A stretch of DNA of 64,000 bases from assembly GCA_037783545.1 (NCBI GenBank), contig JBBELK010000008.1, positions 1,379,001 to 1,443,000 of the forward strand, in the 5' to 3' direction. The notes under the pieces were generated by a model. The model was not told where the DNA came from and made no database searches. It saw only the letters and a program-made list of their open reading frames with translations. Below are positions 1 through 64,000 of the stretch, piece by piece (within the stretch, counting starts at the first letter, position 1; every line of letters starts with the position of its first letter). This DNA is from Henricia sp. BOLD:AAB3569 (taxonomy: Eukaryota; Echinodermata; Asteroidea; Spinulosida; Echinasteridae). The position numbers were made by a program, and so were the translations under genes.

Positions 1-2706
1 ACGAAAGAGCGCCCTCTAGCGGCAAGTTGAAAAATGGCCAAAACCTATTTTGAGGAGATGTCTGTGGCGAAGTTTTTGCAAATTGGCGCAAAATTGGTGC
101 ATATGTTCACTGAGGGTCAGTGAACACGCCCATACCTTCAAAAGTTTGATGACGTCACCAGGTGTCAAATTACACTCAGTTGAACATGCGTTCTTCTAAC
201 GGCAATATCTAGAAAACGAAAAGGCCGATGGAGGTCAAATTTTGTGTTTTAGTATTGTTGTGACTTAATCTAATGCATATTATCAGCAAAAGTTGGTAGC
301 GTAACGATGACGTCATCAAATAAGCGCGTTTGTGCAGCATACATTAGCCAAGGTCGTTCACTTCCTCTATTGGTCGTATGACCTTGAAACCTTGCAGGGA
401 CGTAGACTTGGTCATTAACATATAACATACTAAGTTACATTAGTGTGACGTCATTTGTTGATTTGTTATTAATTTTTTAATCTAGCAACCTATACTACAG
501 CATACACACAGTGCAGAATATATGAGTGTACATAAACATGCATACACTATCCCCAAGTCCCATAGACAAACCACAGTCTGTATCGCTGGTCTAAGTGTCG
601 CCTGCAAAGCTTGGATCATCATCAAACTTGGTCACAATAAGGAACCCATAGTAAAGTACTATACCAAAGAGGTTACATCTTGATGACGTCACCAGGTGTC
701 AGATTACATGTGTCTGAAATTTAATGCCTTAAAAATTCAAAAATCTGTAAAAATTCAACCGTTTGACATACAAACATTTTTGTTTCGGCAATGGTCATGA
801 CTATCCAATGTCTAAATTTCATGCAGAGACAATGACCTTGAAACTTGCTTCCTATTGGTCGAAAACGAGGCTGCCCTGTCATTTAAAACTGGTAGCAGAT
901 ACCGAAATCGGGTCAAAAGTGTTAGTCTCAGGACCCCTTGGGCATCAAAAAAATACCAAAAATTAGGTCGTCACACGAAAGAGCGCCCTCTAGCGGCAAG
1001 TTAAAAAATGGCCAAAACGCGTTTTTAAGAGATGTCTGTGGCGAAGTTTTTGCAAATTGGCCCAAAATTGGTGCATATGTTCACTGAGGGTCAGTTAACA
1101 TGCCCATACCTTCAAAATTTTGATGACGTCATCAGGTGTCAAATTACACTCAGTTGAACATGCATTCTTTTAACAACTATATATAGAGAACAAAAAGGCC
1201 GATGAAGGTCAAATTGTGTGTTTTAGGTTTGTTGTGACTTGGTCTAATGCATATTAGCAGCAAAATTTGGTGGCGTAACGATGACGTCATCAAATAAGCC
1301 CGTTTGTGCAGCATACATTAGCCAAGGTCGTTCACTTCCTGTATTGGTCGTATGACCTTGAAACCTAGCAGGTACGTAGACCTGGACATTAACATGTAAC
1401 ATACCAAGTTACATTAGTATGACATGCATATTTTGTTGATTTATTATGAATTTTTAAATCTTGTCACTGTGCATGTACATGTACATGTACGGTATGCATT
1501 TACATTGTACAAAATGTACATGTAGTATTATACAGCATGCAGTTTTCCATGCATACAAACATACAAAAAAAGAAAAGCGGAAAGCCATATGCTCTGTTAT
1601 CAACAGACATACCTCTAGTTTTTTTTTTTTTTTTTTTAGCTTTTTTTATTCTTCTCCCAAAACCTCATAGACAAAGCGCATGGTCTTTCGGCCTGGCAAA
1701 ATGGTCACTTGCAAAGCTCGGATCATCATCAAACTTGGTCACAACAATCACCTCATAATGAAGTACTGCACAAATGTGTTTACATTTTGATGACGTCATC
1801 AGGTGTCAGATTACAAGCGTTTGAAATATATGGCCTTCAAATTGAAACTTCTGTAAAAATTCAACCGTTTGAGATACAAACTTTATTCCTTCGGCAATGG
1901 TCATGACTATCCAAGGTCTAAATTTCATACACAGACATTGACCTTGAATCTTGCTTCCTATTGGTCGAAAACGAGGCTGCCCTGTCATTTAAAACTGGTA
2001 GCAGATACAGAGATCGGGTCAAAAGTGTTAGTCTCAAGACCTCTTGGGCATTCCAAAAATACCAAAAGTTAAGTCGTGACACGAAAGAGCGCCCTCTAGC
2101 GGCAGGTTGAAAAATGGCCAAAACCTATTTTGAAGAGATGTCTGTGGCGAAGTTTTTGCAAATTGGCCCAAAATTGGTGCATATGTTCACTGAGGGTCAG
2201 TGTACACGCCCATACCTTCAAAAGTTTGATGACGTCACCAGGTGTCAAATTACACTCAGTTGAACATGCGTTCTTCTAACGGTTATATCTAGAGAACGAA
2301 AAGGCCGATGGAGGTCAAATTTTGTGTTTTAGGTTTGTTGTGACTTGGTCTAATGCATATTAGCAGCAAAATTTGGTGGCGTAACGATGACGTCATCAAA
2401 TAAGCCCGTTTGTGCAGCATACATTAGCCAAGGTCGTTCACTTCCTCTGATGGGCATATGACCTTGAAACCTAGCAGGGACGTAGACTTGGTCATTGACA
2501 TGTAACATACCAAGTTACATTAGTGTGACGGCATTTGTTGATTTGTTATGAATTTTTAAATCTGGCAACCTATACTACAGCATACACACTGTGCAGTATA
2601 TTATGAGTATACATAAGCATGTACAATATGCATACATCTGCACTACGCCATATCCCATAGACAAAGCACATAGTATGTCTCACTGGTAGAAGGGTGGCTT
2701 GCAAAG

Positions 2707-5434
2707 CTTGGATCATCTTCAAACTTTGTCACAATAAGGAACCCATAGTAAAGTACTATACCAAAGAGGTTACATCTTGATGACGTCATCAGGTGTCCAA
2801 TTACAAGCGTTTTAAATTTAATGCCTTACATATTCAAAAATCTGTAAAAATTCAACCGTTTGAGATACAAACTTTATTCCTTCGGCAATGATCATGACTA
2901 TCCAAGGTCTAAATTTCATACTTAGACATTGACCTTGAATCTTGCTTCCTATTGGTCGAAAACGAGGCTGCCCTGTCATTTAAAACTGGTAGCAGATACC
3001 AAGATTGGGTCAACGTTGTTAGTCTCGGGACCCCTTGGGCATTACAAAAATACCAAAAGTTAAGTCGTCACACGAAACAGCGCCCTCTAGCGGCAAGTTG
3101 CAAAATGGCCAAAACGCATTTTGAAGAGATGTCTGTGGCGACGTTTTTGCAAATTGGCCCAAAATTGGTGCTTATGTTCACTGAGGGTCAGTGAATATGC
3201 CCATACTTTCAAAAGTTTGATGACGTCACCAGGTGTCAAATTACACTCGCTTGAACGTGCATCCTTTTAACAGCTATATGTAGAGAACGAAACGGCCGAT
3301 GAAGGTCAAATATTTTGTTTCAGGTTTGTTGTGACTTGGTCTAACGCATATTAGCAGCAAAATTTGGAGGCGTAACGATGACGTCATCAAATAAGCCCGT
3401 TTGTACAGCATACATTAGCCAAGGTCGTTCACTTCCTCTAATGGTCGTATGACCTTGAAACCGAGCAGGGACGTAGACTTGGTCATTAACATATAACATA
3501 CCAAGTTACATTAGTGTGACGTCATTTGTTGATTTGTTATGAATTTTTGAATCTGGCAACCTATACTACAGCATACACACAGTGCAGTATATACATGTAT
3601 ACGAGTGTACATAAGCATGTACAATATGCATACATCTGCACTATCCCATAGACAAAGCACACAGTCTGTCTCGGTGCTAGAAGAGTCGCTTGCAAAGCTT
3701 GGATCATCATCAAACTTAGTCACAATAAGGAACCCATAGTAAAGTACTATACCAAAGAGGTTAGATCTTGATGACGTCACCAGGTGTCAGATTACATGTG
3801 TCTGAAATTTAATGCCTTACAAATTGAAAAATCTGTAAAAATTCAACCGTTTGAGATACAATCTTTATTCTTTCGGCACTGGTCATGACTATCCAAGGTC
3901 TAAATTTCATGCAGAGACATTGACCTTGAATCTTGTTTCCTATTGGTCGAAAACGAGGCTGCCTTGTCATTTAAAACTGGTAAGCGATGCCGAGATCGTG
4001 TCAACGGTGTTAGTCTCGGGACCCCTTGGGCATTCAACAAATACAAAAAGTTAAGTCGTCACACGAAACAGCGCCCTCTAGTGACGAGTTGAAAAAAAAC
4101 CAAAACGTATTTTGAATTGGTCAAATGTATAATATCAGCTAAATATTGTGACGTCACGATGACGTAATCAAATAAGAGTTCCTCAAGTATACATTAACCA
4201 AGGTCGTTTACTTTCTCCATTGGTCGTATGACCTTGAAAACTATCAGGTGCCTGGACCTGGTCATTAACATGTAACATACCAAGTTACATTAGTATGACA
4301 TGCATGATTTGTTGATTTATTATGAATTTTTGAATCTTGTCACTGTGCATACTGTACATGTATATGTACGGTATGTATTTATATTGTACAAAGTGTACAT
4401 GTAGTATTATACAGCATGCAGTTTTACATGCATACAAACATACAAAAAAAGAAAAGCGGAAAGCCATATGCTCTGTTATCAACAGACATACCTCTAGTTT
4501 TTAGCTTTTTTTATTCTTCTCCCAAAACCCCATAGACAAAGCGCATGGTCTTTCGGCCTGGCAAAATGGTCACTTGCAAAGCTCGGATCATCATCAAACT
4601 TGGTCACAACAATCACCTCATAGTGAAGTACTGCACAAATGTGTTTACATTTTGATGATGTCATCAGGTGTCAGATTACAAGCGTTTGAAATATATGGCC
4701 TTCAAATTGAAACTTCTGTAAAAATTCAACCGTTTGAGATACAAACTTTATTCTTTCGGCAATGGTCATGACTATCCAAGGTCTAAATTTCATACACAGA
4801 CATTGACCTTGAATCTTGCTTCCTATTGGTCGAAAACGAGGCTGCCCTGTCATTTAAAACTGATAGCAGATACAGAGATCGGGTCAAAAGTGTTAGTCTC
4901 AAGACCTCTTGGGCATTCTAAAAATACCAAAAGTTAAGTCGTGACACGAAAGAGCGCCCTCTAGCGGCAAGTTGAAAAATGGCCAAAACCTATTTTGAAG
5001 AGATGTCTGTGGCGAAGTTTTTGCAAATTGGCCCAAAATTGGTGCATATGTTCACTGAGGGTCAGTGAACATGCCCATACCTTCAAAAGTTTAATGACGT
5101 CACCAGGTGTCAAATTACACTCAGTTGAACATGCGTTCTTCTAACTGTTATATATAGAGAACGAAAAGGCCGATGGAGGTCAAATTTTGTGTTTTAGGTT
5201 TGTTGTGACTTGGTCTAATGCATATTAGCAGCAAAATTTGGTGGCGTAACGATGACGTCATCAAATAAGCCCGTTTGTGCAGCATACATTTGCCAAGGTC
5301 GTTCACTTCCTCTAATGGGCGTATGACCTTGAAACCTAGCAGGGACGTAGACGTGGTCATTAACATATAACATACCAAGTTACATTAGTGTGACGTCCTT
5401 TGTTGATTTGTTATGAATTTTTGAATCTGGCAAC
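2707..5434 (+). repeat. 2728-bp tandem duplication, copy 1
   Basis: This higher-order unit spans about three satellite monomers and is followed immediately by a second copy at exactly +2728. Every stretch I compared between the copies, including private variants, is the same. It looks like a very recent unequal crossover or an assembly duplication. Confidence 0.9.
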
Positions 5435-8162
5435 CTTGGATCATCTTCAAACTTTGTCACAATAAGGAACCCATAGTAAAGTACTATACCAAAGAGGTTA
5501 CATCTTGATGACGTCATCAGGTGTCCAATTACAAGCGTTTTAAATTTAATGCCTTACATATTCAAAAATCTGTAAAAATTCAACCGTTTGAGATACAAAC
5601 TTTATTCCTTCGGCAATGATCATGACTATCCAAGGTCTAAATTTCATACTTAGACATTGACCTTGAATCTTGCTTCCTATTGGTCGAAAACGAGGCTGCC
5701 CTGTCATTTAAAACTGGTAGCAGATACCAAGATTGGGTCAACGTTGTTAGTCTCGGGACCCCTTGGGCATTACAAAAATACCAAAAGTTAAGTCGTCACA
5801 CGAAACAGCGCCCTCTAGCGGCAAGTTGCAAAATGGCCAAAACGCATTTTGAAGAGATGTCTGTGGCGACGTTTTTGCAAATTGGCCCAAAATTGGTGCT
5901 TATGTTCACTGAGGGTCAGTGAATATGCCCATACTTTCAAAAGTTTGATGACGTCACCAGGTGTCAAATTACACTCGCTTGAACGTGCATCCTTTTAACA
6001 GCTATATGTAGAGAACGAAACGGCCGATGAAGGTCAAATATTTTGTTTCAGGTTTGTTGTGACTTGGTCTAACGCATATTAGCAGCAAAATTTGGAGGCG
6101 TAACGATGACGTCATCAAATAAGCCCGTTTGTACAGCATACATTAGCCAAGGTCGTTCACTTCCTCTAATGGTCGTATGACCTTGAAACCGAGCAGGGAC
6201 GTAGACTTGGTCATTAACATATAACATACCAAGTTACATTAGTGTGACGTCATTTGTTGATTTGTTATGAATTTTTGAATCTGGCAACCTATACTACAGC
6301 ATACACACAGTGCAGTATATACATGTATACGAGTGTACATAAGCATGTACAATATGCATACATCTGCACTATCCCATAGACAAAGCACACAGTCTGTCTC
6401 GGTGCTAGAAGAGTCGCTTGCAAAGCTTGGATCATCATCAAACTTAGTCACAATAAGGAACCCATAGTAAAGTACTATACCAAAGAGGTTAGATCTTGAT
6501 GACGTCACCAGGTGTCAGATTACATGTGTCTGAAATTTAATGCCTTACAAATTGAAAAATCTGTAAAAATTCAACCGTTTGAGATACAATCTTTATTCTT
6601 TCGGCACTGGTCATGACTATCCAAGGTCTAAATTTCATGCAGAGACATTGACCTTGAATCTTGTTTCCTATTGGTCGAAAACGAGGCTGCCTTGTCATTT
6701 AAAACTGGTAAGCGATGCCGAGATCGTGTCAACGGTGTTAGTCTCGGGACCCCTTGGGCATTCAACAAATACAAAAAGTTAAGTCGTCACACGAAACAGC
6801 GCCCTCTAGTGACGAGTTGAAAAAAAACCAAAACGTATTTTGAATTGGTCAAATGTATAATATCAGCTAAATATTGTGACGTCACGATGACGTAATCAAA
6901 TAAGAGTTCCTCAAGTATACATTAACCAAGGTCGTTTACTTTCTCCATTGGTCGTATGACCTTGAAAACTATCAGGTGCCTGGACCTGGTCATTAACATG
7001 TAACATACCAAGTTACATTAGTATGACATGCATGATTTGTTGATTTATTATGAATTTTTGAATCTTGTCACTGTGCATACTGTACATGTATATGTACGGT
7101 ATGTATTTATATTGTACAAAGTGTACATGTAGTATTATACAGCATGCAGTTTTACATGCATACAAACATACAAAAAAAGAAAAGCGGAAAGCCATATGCT
7201 CTGTTATCAACAGACATACCTCTAGTTTTTAGCTTTTTTTATTCTTCTCCCAAAACCCCATAGACAAAGCGCATGGTCTTTCGGCCTGGCAAAATGGTCA
7301 CTTGCAAAGCTCGGATCATCATCAAACTTGGTCACAACAATCACCTCATAGTGAAGTACTGCACAAATGTGTTTACATTTTGATGATGTCATCAGGTGTC
7401 AGATTACAAGCGTTTGAAATATATGGCCTTCAAATTGAAACTTCTGTAAAAATTCAACCGTTTGAGATACAAACTTTATTCTTTCGGCAATGGTCATGAC
7501 TATCCAAGGTCTAAATTTCATACACAGACATTGACCTTGAATCTTGCTTCCTATTGGTCGAAAACGAGGCTGCCCTGTCATTTAAAACTGATAGCAGATA
7601 CAGAGATCGGGTCAAAAGTGTTAGTCTCAAGACCTCTTGGGCATTCTAAAAATACCAAAAGTTAAGTCGTGACACGAAAGAGCGCCCTCTAGCGGCAAGT
7701 TGAAAAATGGCCAAAACCTATTTTGAAGAGATGTCTGTGGCGAAGTTTTTGCAAATTGGCCCAAAATTGGTGCATATGTTCACTGAGGGTCAGTGAACAT
7801 GCCCATACCTTCAAAAGTTTAATGACGTCACCAGGTGTCAAATTACACTCAGTTGAACATGCGTTCTTCTAACTGTTATATATAGAGAACGAAAAGGCCG
7901 ATGGAGGTCAAATTTTGTGTTTTAGGTTTGTTGTGACTTGGTCTAATGCATATTAGCAGCAAAATTTGGTGGCGTAACGATGACGTCATCAAATAAGCCC
8001 GTTTGTGCAGCATACATTTGCCAAGGTCGTTCACTTCCTCTAATGGGCGTATGACCTTGAAACCTAGCAGGGACGTAGACGTGGTCATTAACATATAACA
8101 TACCAAGTTACATTAGTGTGACGTCCTTTGTTGATTTGTTATGAATTTTTGAATCTGGCAAC
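5435..8162 (+). repeat. 2728-bp tandem duplication, copy 2
   Basis: This is the second copy of the unit at 2707-5434. The join at 5434/5435 lies where CTGGCAAC meets CTTGGATCATC, so the TACATGTA-rich part expected there is missing at the seam. After 8162 the ordinary monomer sequence resumes. Confidence 0.9.
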
Positions 8163-9070
8163 CTATACCACAGCATACACACAGTGCAGTATATACGGGT
8201 GTACATAAGCATGAACAATCGCCATACATCTGCACTACCCCATTTCCCATAGACAAAGCACATAGTCTATCTCGCTGCTAGAAGGGTCGCTTGCAAAGCT
8301 TGGATCATCATCAAACTTGGTCACAATAAGGAACCCATACTAAAGTACTATACCAAAGAGGTTACATCTTGATGACGTCACCAGGGGTCAGATTACATGT
8401 GTCTGAAATTTAATGCCTTAAAAATTAAAAGATTTGTAAAAATTCAACCGTTTGAGATACAAACATTTTTGTTTCGGCAATGGTCATGACTATCCAATGT
8501 CTAAATTCCATGCAGAGACAATGACCTTGAATCTTGCTTCCTATTGGTCGAAAACGAGGCTGCGTTGTCATTTAAAACTGGTAGCAGATACCGAAATTGG
8601 GTCAACGTTGTTAGTCTCGGGACCCCTTGGGCATTACAAAAATACCAAAAGTTAAGTCGTCACACGAAACAGCGCCCTCTAGCGGCAAGTTGAAAAATGG
8701 CCAAAACGCATTTTGAAGAGATGTCTGTGGCGAAGTTTTTGCAAATTAGCCCAAAATTGGTGCATATGTTCACTGAGGGTCAGTGAATACGCCCATACTT
8801 TCAAACGTTTGATGACGTCACCAGGTGTCAAATTACACTCAGTTGAACATGCGTTCTTCTAACGGTTATATCTAGGGAACGAAAAGGCCGATGGAGGTCA
8901 AATTTTGTGTTTTAGGTTTGTTGTGACTTGGTCTAATGCATATTAGCAGCAAAATTTGGTGGCGTAACGATGACGTCATCAAATAAGCCCGTTTGTGCAG
9001 CATACATTAGCCAAGGTCGTTCACTTCCTCTAATGGGCGTATGACCTTGAAACCTAGCAGGGACGTAGAC

Positions 9071-10646
9071 TTGGTCATTAACATATAACATATCAAATTA
9101 CATTAGTGTGACGTCATTTGTTGATTTGTTATGAATTTTTGAATCTGGCAACCTATACCACAGCATACACACAGTGCAGTATATACGAGTGTACATAAGC
9201 ATGTACAATATGCATACATCTGCACTACCCCATTTCCCATAGACAAAGCACATAGTCTATCTCGCTGCTAGAAGGGTCGCTTGCAAAGCTTGGATCATCA
9301 TCAAACTTGGTCACAATAAGGAACCCATAGTAAAGTACTATACCAAAGAGGTTACATCTTGATGACGTCACCAGGTGTCAGATTACATGTGTCTGAAATT
9401 TAATGCCTTAACAATTCAAAAATCTGTAAAAATTCAACCGTTTGAGATACAAACTTTATTCCTTCGGCAATGGTCATGACTATCCAAGGTCTAAATTTCA
9501 TACACAGACATTGACCTTGAATCTTGCTTCCTATTGGTCGAAAACGAGGCTGCCCTGTCATTTAAAACTGGTAGCAGATACAGAGATCGGGTCAAAAGTG
9601 TTAGTCTCAAGACCTCTTGGGCATTCCAAAAATACCAAAAGTTAAGTCGTGACACGAAAGAGCGCCCTCTAGCGGCAAGTTGAAAAATGGCCAAAACATA
9701 TTTTGAAGAGATGTCTGTGGCGAAGTTTTTGCAAATTGGCCCAAAATTGGTGCATATGTTCACTGAAGTTCAGTGAACACGCCCATACCTTCAAAAGTTT
9801 GATGACGTCACCAGGTGTCAAATTACACTCAGTTGAACATGCGTTCTTCTAACGGTTATATCTAGGGAACGAAAAGGCCGATGGAGGTCAAATTTTGTGT
9901 TTTAGGTTTGTTGTGACTTGGTCTAATGCATATTAGCAGCAACATTTGGTGCCGTAACGATGACGTCATCAAATAAGCCCGTTTGTGCAGCATACATTAG
10001 CCAAGGTCGTTCACTTCCTCTTGGTCATTAACATATAACATATCAAATTACATTAGTGTGACGTCATTTGTTGATTTGTTATGAATTTTTGAATCTGGCA
10101 ACCTATACCACAGCATACACACAGTGCAGTATATACGAGTGTACATAAGCATGTACAATATGCATACATCTGCACTACCCCATTTCCCATAGACAAAGCA
10201 CATAGTCTATCTCGCTGCTAGAAGGGTCGCTTGCAAAGCTTGGATCATCATCAAACTTGGTCACAATAAGGAACCCATAGTAAAGTACTATACCAAAGAG
10301 GTTACATCTTGATGACGTCACCAGGTGTCAGATTACATGTGTCTGAAATTTAATGCCTTAACAATTCAAAAATCTGTAAAAATTCAACCGTTTGAGATAC
10401 AAACTTTATTCCTTCGGCAATGGTCATGACTATCCAAGGTCTAAATTTCATACACAGACATTGACCTTGAATCTTGCTTCCTATTGGTCGAAAACGAGGC
10501 TGCCCTGTCATTTAAAACTGGTAGCAGATACAGAGATCGGGTCAAAAGTGTTAGTCTCAAGACCTCTTGGGCATTCCAAAAATACCAAAAGTTAAGTCGT
10601 GACACGAAAGAGCGCCCTCTAGCGGCAAGTTGAAAAATGGCCAAAA
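9071..10646 (+). repeat. 950-bp tandem duplication within the satellite
   Basis: The sequence starting TTGGTCATTAACATATAAC at 9071 restarts at 10021, 950 bp later, and stays nearly identical until about 10646. The seam at 10020/10021 deletes about 40 bp of monomer between CACTTCCTC and TTGGTCATT. It is another local unequal-crossover product. Confidence 0.8.
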
Positions 10647-13600
10647 CGCGTTTTGAACAGATGTCTGTTGCGAAGTTACATTAGTGTGACGTCTTTTGTT
10701 GATTTGTTATGAATTTTTGAATCTGGCAACCTTTACAACAGCATACACACAGTGCAGTATATACGAGTGTACACAAGCATGTACAATATGCATACATCTG
10801 CACTACAACATATCCCATAGACAAAGCACATAGTCTATCCCGCTGCTAGAAGGGTCGCTTGCAAAGCTTGGATCATCATCAAACTTGGTCAAAATGAGGA
10901 ACCCAAAGTAAAGTACTATACCAAAGAGGTTACATATTAATGACGTCACCAGGTGTCAGATTACAAGCGTTTGAAATATATGGCCTTCAATATTGAAACT
11001 TCTGTAAAAATTCAACCGTTTGAGATACAAACTTTATTCCTTCGGCAATGGTCATGACTATCCAAGGTCTAAATTTCATACACAGACATTGACCTTGAAT
11101 CTTGCTTCCTATTGGTCGAAAACGAGGCTGCCCTGTCATTTAAAACTGGTAGCAGATACAGAGATTGGGTCAAAAGTGTTAGTCTCAAGACCTCTTGGGC
11201 ATTCCAAAAATACCAAAAGTTAAGTCGTGACACGAAAGAGCGCCCTCTAGCGGCAAGTTGAAAAATGGCCAAAACATATTTTAAAGAGATGTCTGTGGCG
11301 AAGTTTTTGCAAATTGGCCCAAAATTGGTGCATATGTTGACTGAGGGTCAGTGAACATGCCCATACCCTCAAAAGTTTGATGACGTCACCAGGTGTCAAA
11401 TTACACTCGGTTGAACATGCATTATTTTAACTGCTATATCTATAGAACGAAAATGCCGATCAAGGTCAAATGTTGTGTTTTAGGTTTGTTATGACTTGGT
11501 CTAATGCATATTAGCAGCAAAACTTGGTGGCGTAACGATGACGTCATCAAATAAGCCCGTTTGTGCAGCATGCATTAGCCAAGGCCGTTCACTTCCTCTA
11601 ATGGTCGTACGACCTTGAAACCTAGCAGGGACGTAGACTTGGTCATTGACAAGTAACATACCAAGTTACAATAGTGTGACGTCATTTGTTGATTTGTTAT
11701 GAATTTTTGAATCTGGCAACCTATACTACAGCATACACACTGTGCAGTATATTATGAGTATACATAAGCATATATAATATGCATACATCTGCACTGCGCC
11801 ATATCCCGTAGACAAAGCAGTTTGATTACGTCGCCAGGTGTCAAATTACACTCGGTTAAACATGCGTTCTTCTAACGGTTATATCTAGAGAACGAAATAG
11901 CCGATGGAGGTCAAATTTTGTGTTTTAGCAGGTACGTAGAGTTTTACATGCATACAAACATACAAAAAAACAAAAGCGGAAAGCCATATGCTCTGTTATC
12001 AACAGACATACCTCTAGTTTTTTTAGCTTTTTTTATTCTTCCGTCAAAACCCCATAGACAAAGCGCATGGTCTTTCGGCCTGGCAAAATGGTCACTTGCA
12101 AAGCTCGGATCATCATCAAACTTGGTCACAACAATCACCTCATAATGAAGTACTGCACAAATGTGTTTACATTTTGATGACGTCATCAGGTGTCAGATTA
12201 CAAGCGTTTGAAATATATGGCCTTCAAATTGAAACTTCTGTAAAAATTCAACCGTTTGAGATACAAACTTTATTCTTTCGGCAATGGTCATGACTATCCA
12301 AGGTCTAAATTTCATACAGAGACATTGACCTTGAATCTTGCTTCCTATTGGTCGAAAACGAGGCTGCCCTGTCATTTAAAACTGGTAGCAGATACAGAGA
12401 TCGGGTCAAAAGTGTTAGTCTCAAGACCTCTTGGGCATTCCAAAAATACCAAAAGTTAAGTCGTGACACGAAAGAGCGCCCTCTAGCGGCAAGTTGAAAA
12501 ATGGCCAAAACCTATTTTGAAGAGATGTCTGTGGCGAAGTTTTTGCAAATTGGCCCAAAATTGGTGCATATGTTCACTGAGGGTCAGTGAACACGCCCAT
12601 ACCTTCAACAGTTTGATGACGTCACCAGGTGTCAAATTACACTCAGTTGAACATGCGTTCTTCTAACGGTTATATATAGAGAACGAAAAGGCCGATGGAG
12701 GTCAAATTTTGTGTTTTAGGTTTGTTGTGACTTAGTCTAATGCATATTAGCAGCAAAATTTGGTGGCGTAACGATGACGTCATCAAATAAGCCCGTTTGT
12801 GCAGCATACATTTGCCAAGGTCGTTCACTTCCTCTAATGGGCGTATGACCTTGAAACCTAGCAGGGACGTAGACGTGGTCATTAACATATAACATACCAA
12901 GTTACATTAGTGTGACGTCCTTTGTTGATTTGTTATGAATTTTTGAATCTGGCAACCTATACCACAGCATACACACAGTGCAGTATATACGGGTGTACAT
13001 AAGCATGAACAATATGCATACATCTGCACTACCCCATTTCCCATAGACAAAGCACATAGTCTATCTCGCTGCTAGAAGGGTCGCTTGCAAAGCTTGGATC
13101 ATCATCAAACTTGGTCACAATAAGGAACCCATAGTAAAGTACTATACCAAAGAGGTTACATCTTGATGACGTCACCAGGTGTCAGATTACATGTGTCTGA
13201 AATTTAATGACTTAAACATTCAACAATCTGTAAAAATTCAACCGTTTGAGATACAAACTTTATTCTTTCGGCAATGTTCATGACTATCGAAGGTCTAAAT
13301 TTCATACAGAGACATTGACCTTGAATCTTGCTTCCTATTGGTCGAAATTGAGGCTGCCCTGTCATTTAAAACTGGTAGCAGATACCGAGATCGGGTCAAA
13401 AGTTTTAGTCTCAGGACCCCTTGGGCATCAAAAAAATACCAAAAGTTAGGTCGTCACACAAAAGAGCGCCCTCTAGCGGCAAGTTGAAAAATTGTCAAAA
13501 CGCGTTTTTAAGAGATGTCTGTGGCGAAGTTTTTGCTAATTGGCCCAAAATTGGTGAATATGGTCACTGAGGGACAGTGAACATGCCCATACCTTCAAAA

Positions 13601-16600: not shown

Positions 16601-16970
16601 TATATTATCAGCTAAATATTGTGACGTCACGATGACGTAATCAAATAAGAGTTCCTCAAGTATACATTAACCAAGGTCGTTTACTTTCTCCATTGGTCGT
16701 ATGACCTTGAAAACTATCAGGTGCCTGGACCTGGTCATTAACATGTAACATACCAAGTTACATTAGTATGACATGCATGATTTGTTGATTTATTATGAAT
16801 TTTTGAATCTTGTCACTGTGCATACTGTACATGTATATGTACGGTATGTATTTATATTGTACAAAGTGTACATGTAGTATTATACAGCATGCAGTTTTAC
16901 ATGCATACAAACATACAAAAAAAGAAAAGCGGAAAGCCATATGCTCTGTTATCAACAGACATACCTCTAG

Positions 16971-49108: not shown

Positions 49109-49420
49109 GGTATGAAGCGGGACTCCCAATCAGAGGTTGGGGGTTCGAGCCCCACTTCGACCAACGTGTCTGTGTCCCTGGGCAAGGCGCTTAATCCCAG
49201 TTGCCTCGTCAACCCAAGCGATATATGGGAAGCTGTTAAGGGGAATGCCACAATCTAACTGCTGATAGGGTTGAGCGCCTGACCAGCAGCCACCTAGTTG
49301 AAGCGAAATGGTTCTGGTGATTCCCTGATGGCAGCGGTAATAATGGTAACAGCGCCTTGAGCGCCCTGCAGGGTGGATATGTGCGCTATACAAATCTAAT
49401 CATTATTATTATTATTATTA
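49109..49420 (+). mobile_element. tRNA-derived SINE inserted in a satellite monomer
   Basis: A tRNA-like head contains the B box GGGTTCGAGCCCC at 49141, followed by CCTGGGCAAGGCGCTTAATCC, a body, and a tail GCGCTATACAAATCTAATC(ATT)n. Both the head and the GCGCTATA tail are typical of SINEs in marine invertebrates. No target-site duplication is seen; about 10 bp of the monomer (CAGATACCG) is missing instead. It should be transcribed by RNA polymerase III if active. Confidence 0.85.
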
Positions 49421-52400: not shown

Positions 52401-53072
52401 ACCCATAGTAAAGTACTATACCAAAGAGGTTAGATCTTGATGACGTCACCAGGGGTAAGATTACATGTGTCTGAAATTTAATGCCTTGCAAATTGAAAAA
52501 TCTGTAAAAATTGAACCGTTTGAGATACAATCTTTATTCTTTCGGCACTGGTCATGACTATCCAAGGTCTAAATTTCATGCAGAGACATTGACCTTGAAT
52601 CTTGTTTCCTATTGGTCGAAAACGAGGCTGCCTTGTCATTTAAAACTGGTAAGCGATGCCGAGATCGTGTCAACGGTGTTAGTCTCAGGACCCCTTGGGC
52701 ATTCAAAAAATACAAAAAGTTAAGTCGTCACACGAAACAGCCCCCTCTAGTGACGAGTTGAAAAAAGACCAAAACGTATTTTGAATTGGTCAAATGTATA
52801 TTATCAGCTAAATATTGTGACGTCACGATGACGTAATCAAATAAGAGTTCCTCAAGTATACATTAACCAAGGTCGTCTACTTTCTCCATTGGTCGTATGA
52901 CCTTGAAAACTATCAGGTGCCTGGACCTGGTCATTAACATGTAACATACCAAGTTACATTAGTATGACATGCATGATTTGTTGATTTATTATGAATTTTT
53001 GAATCTTGTCACTGTGCATATTGTACATGTATATGTACAGTATGTATTTATATTGTACAAAGTGTACATGTA

Positions 53073-53214
53073 GTATTATACAGCATGCAGTTTTACATGC
53101 ATACAAACATACAAAAAAAGAAAAGCGGAAAGCCATATGCTCTGTTATCAACAGACATACCTCTAGTCTTTTTTGTATGTTTGTATGCATGTAAAACTGC
53201 ATGCTGTATAATAC
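53073..53214. repeat. Palindrome at the satellite inversion point
   Basis: Arms 53073-53120 and 53168-53214 are near-perfect inverted repeats (GTATTATACAGCATGCAG ... CTGCATGCTGTATAATAC) around a 47-bp centre that holds GCGGAAAGCC and CCTCTAG. The mirror symmetry continues at lower identity on both sides, because the whole array flips here. Confidence 0.9.
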
Positions 53215-56200
53215 TACGTACACTTTGTACAATGTAAATGCATACCCTACATGTACATGTACATGCACAGTGAAAAGATTCAAAAATTCATAATAAATCA
53301 ACAAATCATGCATGTCATACTAATGTAACTTGATATGTTACATGTTAATGACCAGGTCCAGGCACCTGCTAGGTTTGAAGGTCAAACGACCAATGGAGGA
53401 AGTAAACGATCTAGGTTAATGTATACTTGAGGAACTCTTATTTGATTACGTTATCGTTACGCCACCAAATTGTTGTGCTAATATGCACTTTACCAAGTCA
53501 CAACAAACCTAAAACACAAAATTTGACCTTCGTCGGCCTTTTCGTTCTCTAGATATAGCTGTTAAACGAATGCATGTTCAACCGAGTGTAATTTGACACC
53601 TGGTGACGTCATCAAACTTTTGAAGGTATGGGCATGTTCACTGACCCTCAGCGAACATATTCACCAATTTTGGGCCAATTTCAAAAAACTTCGCCACAGA
53701 CATCTGTTCAAAACGCGTTTTGGCCATTTTTCAACTTGCCGCTAGAGGGCGCTCTTTCGTGTCACGACTTAATTTTTGGTATTTTTTGAATGCCCAAGGG
53801 GTCTTGAGACTAACAACGTTGACCCAATCTCGGTATCTGCTACCAGTTTTAAATGACAACGCAGCCTCGTTTTCGACCAATAGGAAGCAAGATTCAAGGT
53901 CATTGTCTTTGCATGAAATTTAGACATTGGATAGTCATGACCATTGCCGAAACAAAAATGTTTGTATCTCAAACGGTTGAATTTTTACAGATTTTTGAAT
54001 TTTTAAGGCATTAAATTTCAGACACATGTAATCTGACACCTGGTGACGTCATCAAGATGTAACCTCTTTGGTACAGTACTTTACTATGGGTTCCTTATTG
54101 TGACCAAGTTTGATGATGATCCAAGCTTTGCAAGCGACCCTTCTAGCAGCGAGATAGACTATGTGCTTTGTCTATGGGAAATGGGGTAGTGCAGATGTAT
54201 GCATATTGTACATGCTTTTGTACACTCGTATATACTGCACTGTGTGTATGCTGTGGTATAGGTTGCCAGATTCAAAAATTCATAACAAATCAACAAATGA
54301 CGTCACACTAATGTAACTTGGTATGTTATATGTTAATGACCAAGTCTACGTCCCTGCTAGGTTTCAAGGTCATACGCCCATTAGAGGAAGTGAACGACCT
54401 TGGCTAATGTATGCTGCACAAACGGGCTTATTTGATGACGTCATCGTTACGCCACCAAATTTTGCGGCCAATATGCATTAGACTAAGTCACAACAAACCT
54501 AAAACACAAAATTTGACCTCCATCGGCCTTTTCGTTCTCTAGATATAACCGTTAGAAGAACGCATGTTCAACTGAGTGTAATTTTACACCTGGTGACGTC
54601 ATCAAACTGTTCAAGGTATGGGCGTGTTCACTGACCCTCAGTGAACATATGCACCAATTTTGGGCCAATTTGCAAAAACTTCGCCACAGACATCTCTTCA
54701 AAATAGGTTTTGGCCATTTTTCAACTTGCCGCTAGAGGGCGCTCTTTCGTGTCACGACTTAACTTTTGGTATTTTTGGAATGCCCAAGAGGTCTTGAGAC
54801 TAACACTTTTGACCCGATCTCTGTATCTGCTACCAGTTTTAAATGACAGGGCAGCCTCGTTTTCGACCAATAGGAAGCAAGATTCAAGGTCAATGTCTGT
54901 GTATGAAATTTAGACCTTGGATAGTCATGACCATTGCCGAAGGAATAAAGTTTGTATCTCAAACGGTTGAATTTTTACAGAAGTTTCAATATTGAAGGCC
55001 ATATATTTCAAACGCTTGTAATCTGACACCTGATGACGTCATCAAAATGTAAACACATTTGTGCAGTACTTCATTATGAGGTGATTGTTGTGACCAAGTT
55101 TGATGATGATCCCAGCTTTGCAAGTGACCATTTTGCCAGGCCGAAAGACCATGCGCTTTGTCTATGGGGTTTTGGGAGAAGAATAAAAAAAGCTAAACTA
55201 GAGGTATGTCTGTTGATAACAGAGCATATGGCTTTCCGCTTTTCTTTTTTTGTATGTTTGTATGCATGTAAAACTGCATGCTGTATAATACTACGTACAC
55301 TTTGTACAATGTAAATGCATACCCTACACGTACATGTACATGCACAGTGAAAAGATTCAAAAATTCATAATAAATCAACAAATCATGCATGTCATACTAA
55401 TGTAACTTGATATGTTACATGTTAATGACCAGGTCCAGGCACCTGCTAGGTTTGAAGGTCATACGACCAATGGAGGAAGTAAACGATCTAGGTTAATGTA
55501 TACTTGAGGAACTCTTATTTGATTACGTTATCGTGACGTCACAATATTTAGCTGATAATATACATTGCACCAAGTCAAAATAAACCTAAAACACAAAATT
55601 TGACCTCCATCGGTTTTTTTGTTCTCTAGATATAGCTGTTAAAAGGATGCACGTTCAACTGAGTGTAATTTGACACCTGGTGACGTCATCAAACTTTTGA
55701 AGGTATGGGCATGTCCACTGACCCTCAGTAAACATATGCACCGATTTTGGGCCAATTTGCAAAAACGTCGCCACAGACATCTCTTCAAAATGCGTTTTGG
55801 CTAGAGGGCGCTCTTTCGTGTGACGACCTAACTTTTGATATTTGTTGATGCCCAAGGGGTCCCGAGACTAACACTTTTGACCCGATCTCGATATCTGCTA
55901 CCAGTTTTAAATGACAACGCAGCCTCGTTCTCGACCAATAGGAAGCAAGATTCAAGGTCAATGTCTCTGCATGAAATTTAGACATTGGATAGTCATGACC
56001 ATTGCCGAAGGAATAAAGTTTGTATCTCAAACGGTTGAATTTGTACAGATTTTTGAAATTATAAGGCATTAAATTTCAGACACATGTAATCTGACACCTG
56101 GTGACGTCATCAAGATGTAACCTCTTTGGTATAGTACTTTACTATGGGTTCCTTACTGTGACCAAGTTTGATGATGATCCAAGCTTTGCAAGCGACCCTT

Positions 56201-59200
56201 CTAGCAGCGAGACAGACTATGTGCTTTGTCTATGGGATATGGGTTAGTGCAGATGTATGCATATTGTACATGCTTATGTACACTCGTATATACTGCACTG
56301 TGTGTATGCTGTGGTATAGGTTGCCAGATTCAAAAATTCATAACAAATCAACAAATGACGTCACACTAATGTAACTTGATATGTTAAATGTTAATGACCA
56401 AGTCTACGTCCCTGCTAGGTTTCAAGGTCATACGCTCATTAGAGGAAGTGAACGACCTTGGCTAATGTATGCTGCACAAACGGGCTTATTTGATGACGTC
56501 ATCGTTACGCCACCAAATTTTGCTGCTAATATGCATTAGACCAAGTCACAACAAACCTAAAACAAAAAATTTGACCTTCATCGGCCGTTTCGTTCTCTAG
56601 ATATAGCTGTTAAAAGGATGCACGTTCAACTGAGTGTAATTTGACACCTGGTGACGTCATCAAACTTTTGAAGGTATGGGCGTGTTCACTGACCCTCAGT
56701 GAACATATGCACCAATTTTGGGCCAATTTACAAAAACTTCGCCACAGACATCTCTTCAAAATAGGTTTTGGCCATTTTTCAACTTGCCGCTAGAGGGCGC
56801 TCTTTCGTGTCACGACTTAACTTTTGGTATTTTTGGAATGCCCAAGAGGTCTTGAGACTAACACTTTTGACCCGATCTCTGTATCTGCTACCAGTTTTAA
56901 ATTACAGGGCAGCCTCGTTTTCGACCAATAGGAAGCAAGATTCAAGGTCATTGTCTCTGCATGAAATTTAGACATTGGATAGTCATGACCATTGCCGAAA
57001 CAAAAATGTTTGTATCTCAAACGGTTGAATTTTTACAGATTCTTGAATTTTTAAGGCATTAAATTTCAGACACATGTAATCTGACACCTGGTGACGTCAT
57101 CAAGATGTAACCTCTTTGGTATAGTACTTTACTATGGGTTCCTTATTGTGACCAAGTTTGATGATGATCCAAGCTTTGCAAGCGACCCTTCTAGCAGCGA
57201 GATAGACTATGTGCTTTGTCTATGGGATATGGGGTAGTGCAGATGTATGCATATTGTACATGCTTATGTACACTCGTATTTACTGCACTGTGTGTATGCT
57301 GTGGTATAGGTTGCCAGATTCAAAAATTCATAACAAATCAACAAATGACGTCACACTGATGTAACTTGGTATGTTATATGTTAATGACCAAGTCTACGTC
57401 CCTGCTAGGTTTCAAGGTCATACGCCCATTAGAGGAAGTGAACGACCTTGGCTAATGTATGCTGCACAAACGGGCTTATTTGATGACGTCATCGTTACGC
57501 CACCAAATTTTGCTGCTAATATGCATTAGACCAAGTCACAACAAACCTAAAACACAAAATTTGACCTCCATCGGCCTTTTCGTTCTCTAGATATAACCGT
57601 TAGAAGAACGCATGTTCAACTGAGTGTAATTTGACACCTGGTGACGTCATCAAACTTTTGAAGGTATGGGCGTGTTCACTGACCCTCAGTGAACATATGC
57701 ACCAATTTTGGGCCAATTTGCAAAAACTTCGCCACAGACATCACTTTAAAATAGGTTTTGGCCATTTTTCAACTTGCCGCTAGAGGGCGCTCTTTCGTGT
57801 CACGACTTAACTTTTGGTATTTTTGGAATGCCCAAGAGGTCTTGAGACTAACACTTTTGACCCGATCTCTGTATCTGCTACCAGTTTTAAATTACAGGGC
57901 AGCCTCGTTTTCGACCAATAGGAAGCAAGATTCAAGGTCAATGTCTGTGTATGAAATTTAGACCTTGGATAGTCATGACCATTGCCGAAAGAATAAAGTT
58001 TGTATCTCAAACGGTTGAATTTTTACAGAAGTTTCAATTTGAAGGCCATATATTTCAAACGCTTGTAATCTGACACCTGATGACGTCATCAAAATGTAAA
58101 CACATTTGTGCAGTACTTCATTATGAGGTGATTGTTGTGACCAAGTTTGATGATGATCCGAGCTTTGCAAGTGACCATTTTGCCAGGCCGAAAGACCATG
58201 CGCTTTGTCTATGGGGTTTTGGGAGAAGAATAAAAAAAGCTAAAACTAGAGGTATGTCTGTTGATAACAGAGCATATGGCTTTCCGCTTTTCTTTTTTTG
58301 TATGTTTGTATGCATGTAAAACTGCATGCTGTATAATACTACGTACACTTTGTACAATGTAAATGCATACCCTACATGTACATGTACATGCACAGTGAAA
58401 AGATTCAAAAATTCATAATAAATCAACAAATCATGCATGTCATACTAATGTAACTTGATATGTTACATGTTAATGACCAGGTCCAGGCACCTGCTAGGTT
58501 TGAAGGTCATACGACCAATGGAGGAAGTAAACGATCTAGGTTAATGTATACTTGAGGAACTCTTATTTGATTACGTTATCGTTACGCCACCAAATTTTTC
58601 TGCTAATATGCATTAGACCAAGTCACAGCAAACCTAAAACACAAAATTTGACCTTCATCGGCCTTTTCGTTCTCTAGATATAGCTGTTAAAAGAATGCAT
58701 GTTCAACCGAGTGTAATTTGACACCTGGTGACGTCATCAAACTTTTGAAAGTATGGGCGTATTCACTGACCCTCAGTGAACATATGCACCAATTTTAGGC
58801 CAATTTGCAAAAACTTCGCCACAGACATCTCTTCAAAATGCGTTTTGGCCATTTTTCAACTTGCCGCTAGAGGGCGCTCTTTCGTGTCACGACTTAACTT
58901 TTGGTATTTTTGGAATGCCCAAGAGGTCTTGAGACTAACACTTTTGATCCGATCTCTGTATCTGCTACCAGTTTTAAATGACAACGCAGCCTCGTTTTCG
59001 ACCAATAGGAAGCAAGATTCAAGGTCATTGTCTCTGCATGAAATTTAGACATTGGATAGTCATGACCATTGCCGAAACAAAAATGTTTGTATCTCAAACG
59101 GTTGAATTTTTACAATTTTTTTAATTTTTAAGGCATTAAATTTCAGACACATGTAATCTGACCTCTGGTGACGTCATCAAGATGTAACCTCTTTGGTATA

Positions 59201-62200
59201 GTACTTTAGTATGGGTTTCTTATTGTGACCAAGTTTGATGATGATCCAAGCTTTGCAAGCGACCCTTCTAGCAGCGAGATAGACTATGTGCTTTGTCTAT
59301 GGGAAATGGGGTAGTGCAGATGTATGGCGATTGTTCATGCTTATGTACACCCGTATATACTGCACTGTGTGTATGCTGTGGTATAGGTTGCCAGATTCAA
59401 AAATTCATAACAAATCAACAAAGGACGTCACACTAATGTAACTTGGTATATTATATGTTAATGACCACGTCTACGTCCCTGCTAGGTTTCAAGGTCATAC
59501 GCCCATTAGAGGAAGTGAACGACCTTGGCAAATGTATGCTGCACAAACGGGCTTATTTGATGACGTCATCGTTACGCCACCAAATTTTGCTGCTAATATG
59601 CATTAGACCAAGTCACAACAAACCTAAAACACAAAATGTGACCTCCATCGGCCTTTTCGTTCTCTATATATAACCGTTAGAAGAACGCATGTTCAACTGA
59701 GTGTAATTTGACACCTGGTGACGTCATCAAACTTTTGAAGGTATGGGCATGTTCACTGACCCTCAGTGAACATATGCACCAATTTTGGGCCAATTTGCAA
59801 AAACTTCGCCACAGACATCTCTTCAAAATAGGTTTTGGCCATTTTTCAACTTGCCGCTAGAGGGCGCTCTTTCGTGTCACGACTTAACTTTTGGTATTTT
59901 TGGAATGCCCAAGAGGTCTTGAGACTAACACTTTTGACCCGATCTCTGTATCTGCTACCAGTTTTAAATGACAGGGCAGCCTCGTTTTCGACCAATAGGA
60001 AGCAAGATTCAAGGTCAATGTCTGTGTATGAAATTTAGACCTTGGATAGTCATGACCATTGCCGAAGGAATAAAGTTTGTATCTCAAACGGTTGAATTTT
60101 TACAGATTTTTGAATATGTAAGGCATTAAATTTCAAACGCTTGTAATTGGACACCTGATGACGTCATCAAGAAATAACCTCTTTGGTATAGTACTTTACT
60201 ATGGGTTACTTATTGTGACCAAGTTTGAAGATGATCCAAGCTTTGCAAGCGACCCTTCTACCAGATAGACATACTATGTGCTTTGTCTATGGGATATGGG
60301 TAGTGCAGATATATGCATATTGTACATGCTTATATATGCTGATATATATACTGCACAGTGTGTATGCTGTAGTATAGGTTGCCAGATTCAAAAATTCATA
60401 ACAAATTAACAAATGACGTCACACTAATGTTACTTGGTATGTTATATGTTAATGACCAAGTATACGTCCCTGCTAGGTGTCAAGGTCATACGACCATTAG
60501 AGGAAGTGAACGACATTGGCTAATGCATGCTGCACAAACGGGCTTATTTGATGACGTCATCGTTACGCCACCAAATTTTGCTGCTAATATGCATTAGACC
60601 AAGTCACAACAAACCTAAAACACAAAATTTGACCTTCATCAGCCTTGTCGTTCTCTAGATATAACCGTCAGAAGAACGCATGTTCAACCGGGTGTAATTT
60701 GACACCTGGTGACGTCATCAAACTTTTGAAGGTATAGGCTTGTTTACTGACCCTCGGTGAACATATGCACCAATTTTGGGCCAATTTGCAAAAACATCGC
60801 CACAGACATCTCTTCAAAATGCGTTTTGGCCATTTTTCAACTTGCCGTTAGAGGGCGCTCTTGCGTGTGACGACCTAGCTTTTGGTATTTTTCTGATGCC
60901 CAAGGGGTCCTGAGAACAACACTTTTGACCCGATCTCCACATCTGCTACCAGTTTTAAATGACAGGATAGCCTCGTTTTCGACCAATATGAAGCAAGATT
61001 CAAGGTCAATGTCTGTGTACGGAATTTAGACCTTGGATAGTCATGACCATTGCCGAAAGAATAAAGTTTGTATCTCAAACGGTTGAATTTTTACAGAAGT
61101 TTCAATTTGAAGGCCATATATTTCAAACGCTTGTAATCTGACACCTGATGACGTCATCAAAATGTAAACACATTTGTGCAGTACTTCACTATGAGGTGAT
61201 TGTTGTGACCAAGTTTGATGATGATCCGAGCTTTGCAAGTGACCGTTTTGCCAGGCCGAAAGACCATGCGCTTTGTCTATGGGGTTTTGGGAGAAGAATA
61301 CAAAAAGCTAAAAAAAACTAGAAGTATGTCTGTTGATAACAGAGCATATGGCTTTCCGCTTTTCTTTTTTTGTATGTTTGTATGCATGTAAAACTGCATG
61401 CTGTATAATACTACATGTACACTTTGTACAATGTAAATACATACGTACATGTACACTTTGTACAATGTAAATACATACGTACATGTACATGCACAGTGAC
61501 AAAATTCCAAAATTCATAATAAATCAACAAATCACGCAAGTCATATGCCTGTTAATGACCAGGTCCAGTCACCTGCTAGGTTTCAAGGTCATACGACCAA
61601 TGGAAGAAGTAAACAACCTAGGTTAATGTATACTTGAGGAACTCTTATTTAATTACGTCATCGTGACATCACAATATTTAGCTGATAATACACATTGCAC
61701 CAAGTCAAACAACCTTGGCTAATGTATGCTGCACAAGCGCGCTTTTTTGATGACGTCATCGTAACGCCACCAAATGTTGCTGACAATATGCATTAGAGCA
61801 AGTCACAACAAGCCTAAAACACAAAATTTTACCCCCATCGGTCTTTTCGTTCTCTAGATATAGCCGTTAGAAGAACGCATGTTCAACCGAGTGTAATTTG
61901 ACACCTGGTGACGTCATCAAACTTTTGAAGGTATGGGCATGTTTACTGACCCTCAGTGAACATATGCACCAATTTTGGGCCAATTTGCAAAAACTTCGCC
62001 ACAGACATCTCTTAAAAACGCGTTTTGACAATTTTTCAACTTGCCGCTAGAGGGCGCTCTTTTGTGTGACGACCTAACTTTTGGTATTTTTTTGATGCCC
62101 AAGGGGTCCTGAGACTAACACTTTTGACCCGATCTCGGTATCTGCTACCAGTTTTAAATGACAGGGCAGCCTCGATTTCGACCAATAGGAAGCAATATTC

Positions 62201-64000
62201 AAGGTCAATGTCTTTGTATGAAATTTAGACCTTCGATAGTCATGACCATTGCCGAAAGAATAAAGTTTGTATCTCAAACGGTTGAATTTTTACAAATTTT
62301 TGAATGTTTAAGTCATTAAATTTCAGACACATGTAATCTGACACCTGGTGCCGTCATCAAGATGTAACCTCTTTGGTATAGTACTTTAATATGGGTTCCT
62401 TATTGTGACCAAGTTTGATGATGATCCAAGCTTTGCAAGCGACCCTTCTAGCAGCGAGACAGACTGTGTGCTTTGTCTATGGGATATGGGGGAAGTGCAG
62501 AGATGTATGCATATTGTACATGCTTATGTACACTCGTATATACTGCACTGTGTGTATGCTGTGGTATAGGTTGCCATATTCAAAAATTCATAACAAATCA
62601 ACAAATGACGTCACACTAATGTAACTTGGTATGTTATATGTTAATGACCAAGTCTACGTCCCTGCTATGTTTCAAGGTCATACGCCCAATAGAGGAAGTG
62701 AACGACCTTGGCTAATGTATGATGCTGTACAAACATGCTTATTTGATGACGTCATCGTTACGCCACCAAATTTTGCTGCTAATATGCATTAGACCAAGTC
62801 ACAACAAACCTAAAACACACAAGTTCACCTCCATCGGCCTTTTCGTTCTCTAGATATAACCGTTATAAGAACGCATGTTCAACTGAGTGTAATTTGACAC
62901 CTGGTGACGTCATCAAACTTTTGAAGGTATGGGCATGTTCACTGACCCTCAGTCAACATATGCACCAATTTTGGGCCAATTTGCAAAAACTTCGCCACAG
63001 ACATCTGTTCAAAACGCGTTTTGGCCATTTTTCAACTTGCCGCTAGAGGGCGCTCTTTCGTGTCACGACTTAACTTTTGGTATTGTTTGAATGCCCAAGG
63101 GGTCTTGAGACTAACACCGTTGATTCCATCTTGGTATCTGCTACCAGTTTTAAATGACAAGCCAGCCTCGTTTTCGACCAATAGGAAGCAAGATTCAAGG
63201 TCAATGTCTGTGTACGAAAGTTAGACCTTGGATAGTCATGAACATTGCCGAAGGAATAAAGTTTGTATCTCAAACGGTTGAATTTTTACAGATGTTTCAA
63301 TATTGAAGGCCATATATTTCAAACGCTTGTAATCTGACACCTGGTGACGTCATCAAGATGTAAACACATTTGTGCAGTACTTCACTATGAGGTGATTGTT
63401 GTGACCAAGTTTGATGATGATCCGAGCTTGGCAAGTGACCATTTTGCCAGGCCGAAAGACCATGCGCTTTGTCTATGGGGTTTTGACGGAAGAATAAAAA
63501 AAGCTAAAAAAAAAAAAAAAAACTAGAGGTATGTCTGTTGATAACAGAGCATATGGCTTTCCGCTTTTCTTTTTTTATATGTTTGTATGCATTTAAAACT
63601 GCATGCTGTATAATACTACATGTACACTTTGTACAATATAAATACATACCGTACATATACATGTACAGTATGCACAGTGACAAGATTCAAAAATTCATAA
63701 TAAATCAACAAATCATGCATGTAATACTAATGTAACTTGGTATGTTACATGTTAATGACCAGGTCCAGGCACCTGATAGTTTTCAAGGTCATACGACCAA
63801 TGGAGAAAGTAAACGACCTTGGTTAATGTATACTTGAGGAACTCTTATTTGATTACGTCATCGTGACGTTACAATATTTAGCTGATAATATACATTTGAC
63901 CAAGTCAAAATACGTTTTGGTCTTTTTTCAACTCGTCACTAGAGGGCGCTGTTTCGTGTGACGACTTAACTTTTTGTATTTTTTGAATGCCCAAGGGGTC
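53168..64000 (-). repeat. Satellite block, inverted orientation, to window end
   Basis: About 11 monomers run in reverse orientation. Landmarks appear as CTTGCCGCTAGAGGGCGC, GACACCTGGTGACGTCATC and GTATCTCAAACGGTTG. The first ~300 bp mirror the end of the previous block. The array continues past the end of the window. Confidence 0.95.

Follow-up and report, generated by a model that had tools for sequence, protein, structure and literature searches.

CTCF-like cores on candidate Helentron arrays in a probable sea star genome

Tandem arrays in which most units carry a CTCF-like core raise the question of whether the cores serve CTCF or simply travel with the repeat. We addressed this question for a 64-kb stretch of DNA, probably from a sea star (G000:C8:1379001-1443000, hereafter “the window”), taken from an assembly of 740.7 Mb in 2104 contigs. 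Since contig C8 (1,444,293 bases) ends ~1.3 kb past the window, the array reaches near the contig end. A previous sequence-only reading had described one CTCF-like core per satellite monomer, some 45-50 in the window, in directions that alternate from block to block, and, as motif direction sets loop polarity in vertebrates, it had proposed that the satellite could act as an array of boundary elements or as a CTCF sink.

Array blocks and their CTCF-like cores

We found head-to-tail units of ~0.85-1.1 kb in four blocks, with a diverged inverted unit adjoining block 1:

1..16970, plus strand: array block 1, HINE-like units (~0.85-1.1 kb), cores on the minus strand, 15 of them exact
17065..17859, minus strand: diverged inverted unit with a decayed core, CCGCTAGAGAGCGC, at 17422-17435
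18076..18182, plus strand: separate 53-bp tandem duplication outside the arrays, with two cores, CCAATAGAGGGCGC, on the minus strand
34683..39344, minus strand: array block 2, cores on the plus strand, 4 exact plus TCGCTAGAGGGCGC at 35156-35169
39345..39553, plus strand: 5' terminal module of 51 bp in ~four tandem copies, where block 2 meets block 3 and the direction switches
39587..53166, plus strand: array block 3, cores on the minus strand, 9 exact
53276..64000, minus strand: array block 4, cores on the plus strand, 8 exact
2089..2102, minus strand: representative CTCF-like core, CCGCTAGAGGGCGC, within a ~990-bp unit
4071..4084, minus strand: representative decayed core, TCACTAGAGGGCGC, in a shorter unit type with 8 such units in the window
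1577..1618, plus strand: example of a 3' terminus, with subterminal GCGGAAAGCC, palindrome TCTGTT-AACAGA, and CTAG end

The exact word CCGCTAGAGGGCGC occurs 36 times in the window, compared to a mean of 0.00 in 100 dinucleotide shuffles, and all 36 matches to the pattern CCNSYAGRGGGCRC are this very word. Its copies lie on the minus strand at 9-15557 (15 copies), on the plus strand in the 36073-38853 region (4, at 36073-38843), again on the minus strand at 40013-51762 (9), and on the plus strand at 53739-63053 (8), and these four strand blocks match the alternation described earlier. No exact core was found between 15557 and 36073, where, at up to 3 mismatches, we observed the two CCAATAGAGGGCGC words at 18.08-18.14 kb, one weak site at 23.4 kb, and decayed units. 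Monomer junctions were located by aligning a 110-base junction probe, which gave 51 rows, three of which (18072, 31735, and 49244) were dropped as non-units. At the resulting 48 junctions, the core was exact in 36 cases and carried 1-3 substitutions in 12, where 8 of the 12 decayed cores read TCACTAGAGGGCGC or TCACTAGAGGGGGC. The proposed 45-50 copies are thus right for the monomers (48) but too high for the intact word (36).

We scored all 19 positions of the CTCF motif with the vertebrate matrix MA0139.1, using a uniform background. On this matrix, the commonest form of the site with its flanks scored 19.11 bits (p = 2.1e-7), and 42 sites in the window reached p <= 1e-6, versus 0.13 expected; 40 of these lie in monomers and 2 in the 53-bp repeat at 18.08-18.18 kb. 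A core in every monomer, as originally described, is hence borne out for most of them (36 of 48 exact, 40 of 48 high-scoring), and scores that include the bases outside the core, a check suggested at the time, are not low (19.1 bits, p = 2.1e-7). We did not accept the 36 copies as independent evidence, as they are close to one amplified sequence and jointly amplified copies amount to about one event. A single match at p ~2e-7 per 1-kb monomer would, moreover, be unremarkable if hundreds of factor motifs were considered.

The monomers also hold other factor-like words, which occur far above expectation in the window: TGACGTCA 142 times versus 0.91 expected, TCAAGGTCA 86 times versus 0.63, and GACCAATAG 44 times versus 0.32 (two of the 44 at 18 kb). 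Per monomer, the average comes to some three CREs, two TCAAGGTCA sites, and one CCAAT-like site. Another word, AGGTCAAAGGTCA, was found at three of 45 loci: L044 (8 copies), L005 (2), and L026 (1). The factors usually tied to these words are CREB/ATF, SF-1/ERR, CCAAT factors, and DR1 receptors. Because CREs, TCAAGGTCA, and CCAAT-like sites share the monomer with it, CTCF is not singled out; judged by its words, the unit resembles a cluster of factor-like motifs that includes the CTCF-like core. In the whole window, scans with Rfam and for tRNAs gave no match, and Pfam likewise found nothing at E <= 0.01 in 10 of the 15 stop-to-stop frames that reach 120 aa. Elsewhere in the assembly, the mitochondrial contig C2104 (16,221 bases) carries a COX1 (Pfam match) that is open under the echinoderm code. 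Ahead of COX1, ND4L, and COX2, inspection by eye placed ND1, ND2, and the larger part of a tRNA cluster, all on the minus strand; sea stars have this gene order, and the genome is that of an echinoderm, probably a sea star.

Helentron-type features of the units

The ends of the units speak to what the repeat is. We counted 18 3' ends in the window, spread over all four blocks, that consist of GCGGAAAGCC, the TCTGTT-AACAGA palindrome, and CTAG (CTAT in one case). The 5' module carries the palindromic GGCTTTCCGC, complementary to the GCGGAAAGCC of the 3' end, and the 51-bp module, folded for the copy at 39396-39446, is predicted to form an 11-bp hairpin, GGCTTTCCGCA...TGCGGAAAGCC. One direction switch (39.35-39.55 kb) coincides with an element terminus, where hairpin modules with GGCTTTCCGC stand in tandem.

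For HINEs and Helentrons, the available text of PMC4067079 and PMC7492417 describes subterminal inverted repeats, palindromic and 12-15 bp long, at either end, a 3' subterminal repeat located 38-60 bp from the 3' end, a 3' palindrome 8-35 bp from that end, a 5' subterminal repeat starting 2-4 nt in from the 5' end, carriage of tandem repeats, insertion in T-rich (TT) sites without a target-site duplication, and an autonomous partner with the same ends. In the window, the subterminal repeats are palindromic, and 42 nt, within the published 38-60 bp, separate the start of the 3' subterminal repeat from the end of CTAG. The 6-bp stem of the 3' palindrome stops 11 nt before the end, again within the published range, and the predicted hairpin reaches 7 nt; its fold has z = -2.59, with 5 of 200 shuffles folding equally well. 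Tandem repeats are carried, and the bases right after the 3' ends begin with T. At L044, which represents a diverged subfamily, two elements are joined as CTAG/TT-GGCTGTTCC, with other letters but the same plan and equally paired ends; this junction fits a 5' spacing of 2-4 nt, and the 5' ends in the window run into T tracts. One point against the Helentron reading is that the repeat common to both ends, at 10 bp, is shorter than the published 12-15 bp. An end in CTAG is ascribed to an intermediate proto-Helentron in the available text of PMC4067079.

Genome-wide, we observed 150 matches to Helitron_like_N (150 of 173 candidates scored), dozens of which lie in open frames of >3000 aa; 0 of 14 control genomes gave a match. 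Given the Helentron-type ends, the tandem plan, and these matches, the “satellite” is best read as Helentron-derived arrays of putative nonautonomous (HINE) units placed head to tail, and the alternating direction of the motifs would then be the alternating direction of the elements. As far as the available text of PMC7492417 and PMC4067079 goes, the units share with Cg_HINE of Crassostrea gigas (PMC7492417) and with the HINE/DINE-1-like elements of mites and Drosophila (PMC4067079) the palindromic subterminal repeats, the 3' palindrome near the end, the T-rich junctions, and the tandem repeats carried. Unlike these, our units are ~1 kb long, with a 3' end that recurs inside long arrays, a shared repeat of 10 bp, a CTAG end, and a CTCF-like core in most units. 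A literature search for Helitron satellites in sea star genomes returned no paper.

The host CTCF and the conserved motif block

Searched with the human CTCF fingers, the genome gave its best match at C636:976253-977032 (53% identity, query residues 22-283 of 314), and the orthologue is a 739-codon open frame with nine fingers, for which a PDB comparison gave CTCF as the best match (1.8e-91; best non-CTCF match, 1.4e-62). The earlier appeal to a conserved CTCF is thereby supported in this very genome: the base-reading quartets (helix positions -1, 2, 3, and 6) are identical to human in ZF2-ZF5. They differ in ZF6 (QGTM to QSSE), ZF7 (RSDV to RADT), ZF8, ZF9, and ZF10, and ZF1 and ZF11 are absent, which agrees with the loss of two fingers from sea star and sea urchin CTCF in the available text of PMC13317027. 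In that of PMC12885311, ZF3-ZF7 occupy the CTCF core (~15 bp), with ZF7 at the CCA end, and an upstream motif is described for insulator-type sites; by eye, we found no CAGCTGTTCC-like upstream motif before the core. With ZF2-ZF5 kept and ZF3-ZF7 placed on the core, the AGAGGGCGC half should be readable, and given the changes in ZF6-ZF10 and the absence of ZF1 and ZF11, the 5' half may be read differently.

Inside the window, constraint is hard to judge because the copies are shared by descent, and we rejected window copy number as a constraint signal: by copy number, the motif word comes 65th among the 990 14-mers of one monomer, and 10th when these are narrowed to the 41 with at least two CpG. 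We therefore turn to 12 units from diverged subfamilies, a small set in which L003b, L004b, and L005b are not fully independent because they adjoin an exact core that brought in their locus; the mean identity of the motif window was 0.86 in this set, versus 0.56 over all windows (rank 6 of 575). Reduced to 11 units, the set gave 0.86 versus 0.57 (rank 6 of 628). Five further units chosen by the exact core (L001x, L002x, L004x, L005x, and L006x) were aligned and excluded from this score, and the units of L044 and L045 were found by flank profiles, after which the core was placed with 4 substitutions allowed, a limit at which strongly decayed cores might escape. In the 12 units, TTTAAAACTGGTAG and CCTATTGGTCGAAAA form two further blocks of about equal conservation. 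AGAGGGCGC is intact in 8 of the 12, the full vertebrate-style core CCNSYAGRGGGCRC fits 2, and the first C of the core is replaced by T in 9. Since few stretches of the element are better conserved across these subfamilies than the motif block, its binding by the host nine-finger CTCF appears plausible.

Across the genome, exact CCGCTAGAGGGCGC occurs 2604 times versus 0 for the reversed control, and the full core pattern 4167 times versus 22, of which 2604 are the satellite word and 1563 are others, far above control. With fixed flank ends, AGAGGGCGC was counted 23,077 times versus 566 for the reversed word, a 41-fold excess. Two variants that vertebrate CTCF permits gave 2397 versus 1734 (AGGKGGCGC, 1.4-fold) and 2838 versus 589 (AGATGGCGC, 4.8-fold), and their far weaker enrichment than that of AGAGGGCGC is better fitted by a shared mobile-element word than by a CTCF preference. 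Across 20 pieces sampled from four contigs (200 kb in all), with positions set by hand rather than at random genome-wide, AGAGGGCGC was counted 15 times, with 9 copies in L044 and L045, and the full core pattern 0 times. The flanks of 80 AGAGGGCGC sites among the 100 listed, all on contig C1, fell into 31 clusters, which are not 31 independent events because the clustering chained unlike contexts and may split old relatives; the 20 listed sites left out are units of arrays at C1:556-573 kb and one at 853 kb. Scored on the 5' half of the CTCF motif, the cluster flanks averaged -4.34 bits versus -9.57 for shuffles and beat each of 5000 shuffles, where the still negative mean implies that most AGAGGGCGC sites match the full CTCF motif poorly. 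At matrix position 7, 15 of the 31 clusters have A, a base disfavoured by the vertebrate matrix. We expect this position to be read by residue +6 of ZF6, and the change of that residue from Met to Glu is a hint, though only a hint. The AGAGGGCGC excess looks mostly like repeats that carry one word, and on the variant counts and the negative 5'-half scores, we rejected it as proof of a CTCF preference; in genomes of this kind, mobile elements can push motif counts up. Among the matches listed in a literature text search for AGAGGGCGC, all looked unrelated by title.

Probable passenger sites and competing explanations

We favor, at a probability of roughly 0.6, a joint reading in which the sites would be bindable by CTCF but mostly passengers on Helentron arrays. 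It builds on the observed element ends, tandem structure, diverged relatives, motif score, and CTCF orthologue. HINE units would have spread and been amplified by rolling-circle transposition and unequal exchange, with the CTCF-like core as part of what may be an old conserved internal block of the element family. The host nine-finger CTCF would bind this block mainly via fingers 3-5 on AGAGGGCGC, and the arrays would carry the sites mostly as passengers, or as an element-level host-factor site, without directional loops, the motif direction following that of the element. A possible, if unlikely, alternative is that the conserved block is a Helentron cis-element or a site for another host factor, and that AGAGGGCGC overlaps the CTCF consensus by accident. 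This would fit the conservation of the block together with TTTAAAACTGGTAG and CCTATTGGTCGAAAA, the strong enrichment that other CTCF-permitted variants do not share, and the wealth of further factor-like words in the unit, but it sits poorly with the many contexts unlike this element in which AGAGGGCGC occurs (31 flank clusters from the 80 listed C1 sites) and with cluster flanks that fit the CTCF 5' half better than 5000 shuffles, though still negatively. We consider it improbable that a chance match in a founder unit was neutrally amplified: the copies do amount to about one event, the motif ranks only 65 of 990 among 14-mers (10 of 41 with at least two CpG), and one strong match per 1 kb would be unremarkable among hundreds of motifs, yet the block was kept across subfamilies that average 56% column identity, where it ranks 6 of 575 windows.

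A role of the arrays as boundary elements or a CTCF sink, in which the direction of the motifs would set loop polarity, seems very unlikely to us. The proposal can draw on 40 high-scoring sites in monomers within 64 kb, on 2604 exact cores genome-wide versus 0 for the reversed control together with 1563 further core-pattern matches, on the presence of a CTCF orthologue, and on the CTCF-linked macrosatellites DXZ4 and D4Z4 that literature excerpts describe in mammals. In DXZ4, each unit holds a CTCF site. The likeness lies in tandem arrays associated, here putatively, with CTCF; unlike those macrosatellites, which come with experimental data, our arrays are known from sequence alone, in an echinoderm host with a reduced CTCF and with a mobile element as the unit. 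Against such a role stand a host CTCF that lacks ZF1 and ZF11, a core that by eye is not preceded by a CAGCTGTTCC-like motif, and published Hi-C data. For sea star and sea urchin (Patiria miniata and Strongylocentrotus purpuratus, which likewise have a CTCF minus two fingers and CTCF-like motifs), the available text of PMC13317027 reports TAD-like domains with far less CTCF-motif enrichment at boundaries than in zebrafish, CTCF motifs without an orientation pattern or loop-anchor enrichment, and CTCF as the top motif of non-dynamic open chromatin. That text does not take up motifs borne by repeats. These published data speak against extending the vertebrate polarity rule to this animal and leave CTCF binding in general likely. 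The idea that motif direction encodes loop polarity thus finds no footing in the published echinoderm pattern, and in the window, direction follows the element arrays.

Mobile elements are known to bear CTCF sites, as in mouse SINE B2. Our case is alike in that a mobile element spreads a CTCF-like motif, and unlike it in that SINE B2 is a dispersed retroposon, whereas here a rolling-circle element forms tandem arrays of candidate sites. A literature search on CTCF motifs in Helitrons and transposable elements found nothing on this combination, judged by titles and the start of abstracts. Satellite-forming Helentrons, previously known from oysters and flies, would be extended to an echinoderm by the joint reading. 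A bolder version, which we regard as a long shot, is that a Helentron-derived family spread CTCF-bindable sites by the thousand (2604 exact cores) through the sea star genome, its arrays being so dense that they draw down or cluster the unusually reduced nine-finger CTCF. If true, mobile elements, and not single-copy boundaries, would hold a large share of the bound CTCF, which could help to explain echinoderm CTCF motifs without the vertebrate orientation rule. Whether CTCF loop polarity is ancestral to bilaterians is discussed in the available text of PMC13317027, and a natural array that combines nearly identical CTCF-like sites of either orientation with a host CTCF two fingers short is a ready test bed.

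Factor-like words in array monomers

Across the array monomers (1-17 kb and 35-64 kb), which are head-to-tail HINE-like units, several factor-like words recur besides the CTCF-like core: TGACGTCA palindromes at a mean of ~3 per monomer, TCAAGGTCA sites at ~2, and GACCAATAG at ~1. The 9-base word with the highest count in the array is the core of the CRE palindrome, which occupies several distinct positions within the array unit. We also observed a diverged Helentron-like subfamily with paired ends of its own at positions 2640-5700 of L044, a sampled locus outside the window (G000:C8:802640-805700), where eight perfect AGGTCAAAGGTCA (DR1-like) words are found.

Other repeats and mitochondrial contigs

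Outside the arrays, the window holds two further repeat features:

About 20020-20365: short MITE-like element, its long inverted ends recognized by eye, enclosing a 25-bp CG-rich tandem repeat
26782-27953 (about 1.2 kb): ~95-bp tandem repeats, each of two ~47-bp halves, with strong GC skew

A 144-codon open stretch within the latter had no match in Pfam.

In the source assembly, the mitochondrial genome is a 16,221-base contig (G000:C2104). A second contig, G000:C955, carries three COX1 matches of equal score spaced 16,221 bases apart; it is perhaps a concatemer of the mitochondrial genome, and the COX1 repetition is probably an assembly artefact.

CTCF-like sites beyond the array

Two more high-scoring CTCF-like sites (CCAATAGAGGGCGC) occur in a 53-bp tandem duplication (18076-18182), which lies beside block 1 of the array and has a sequence context unlike that of the array sites. 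At L007, a locus on another contig (G000:C3:2090133), the surroundings of one exact core gave no match to the array monomer. Among the matches listed for contig G000:C1, AGAGGGCGC is repeated across many distinct repeat contexts, in several of which it takes the extended form CAGAGGGCGCTGTT.
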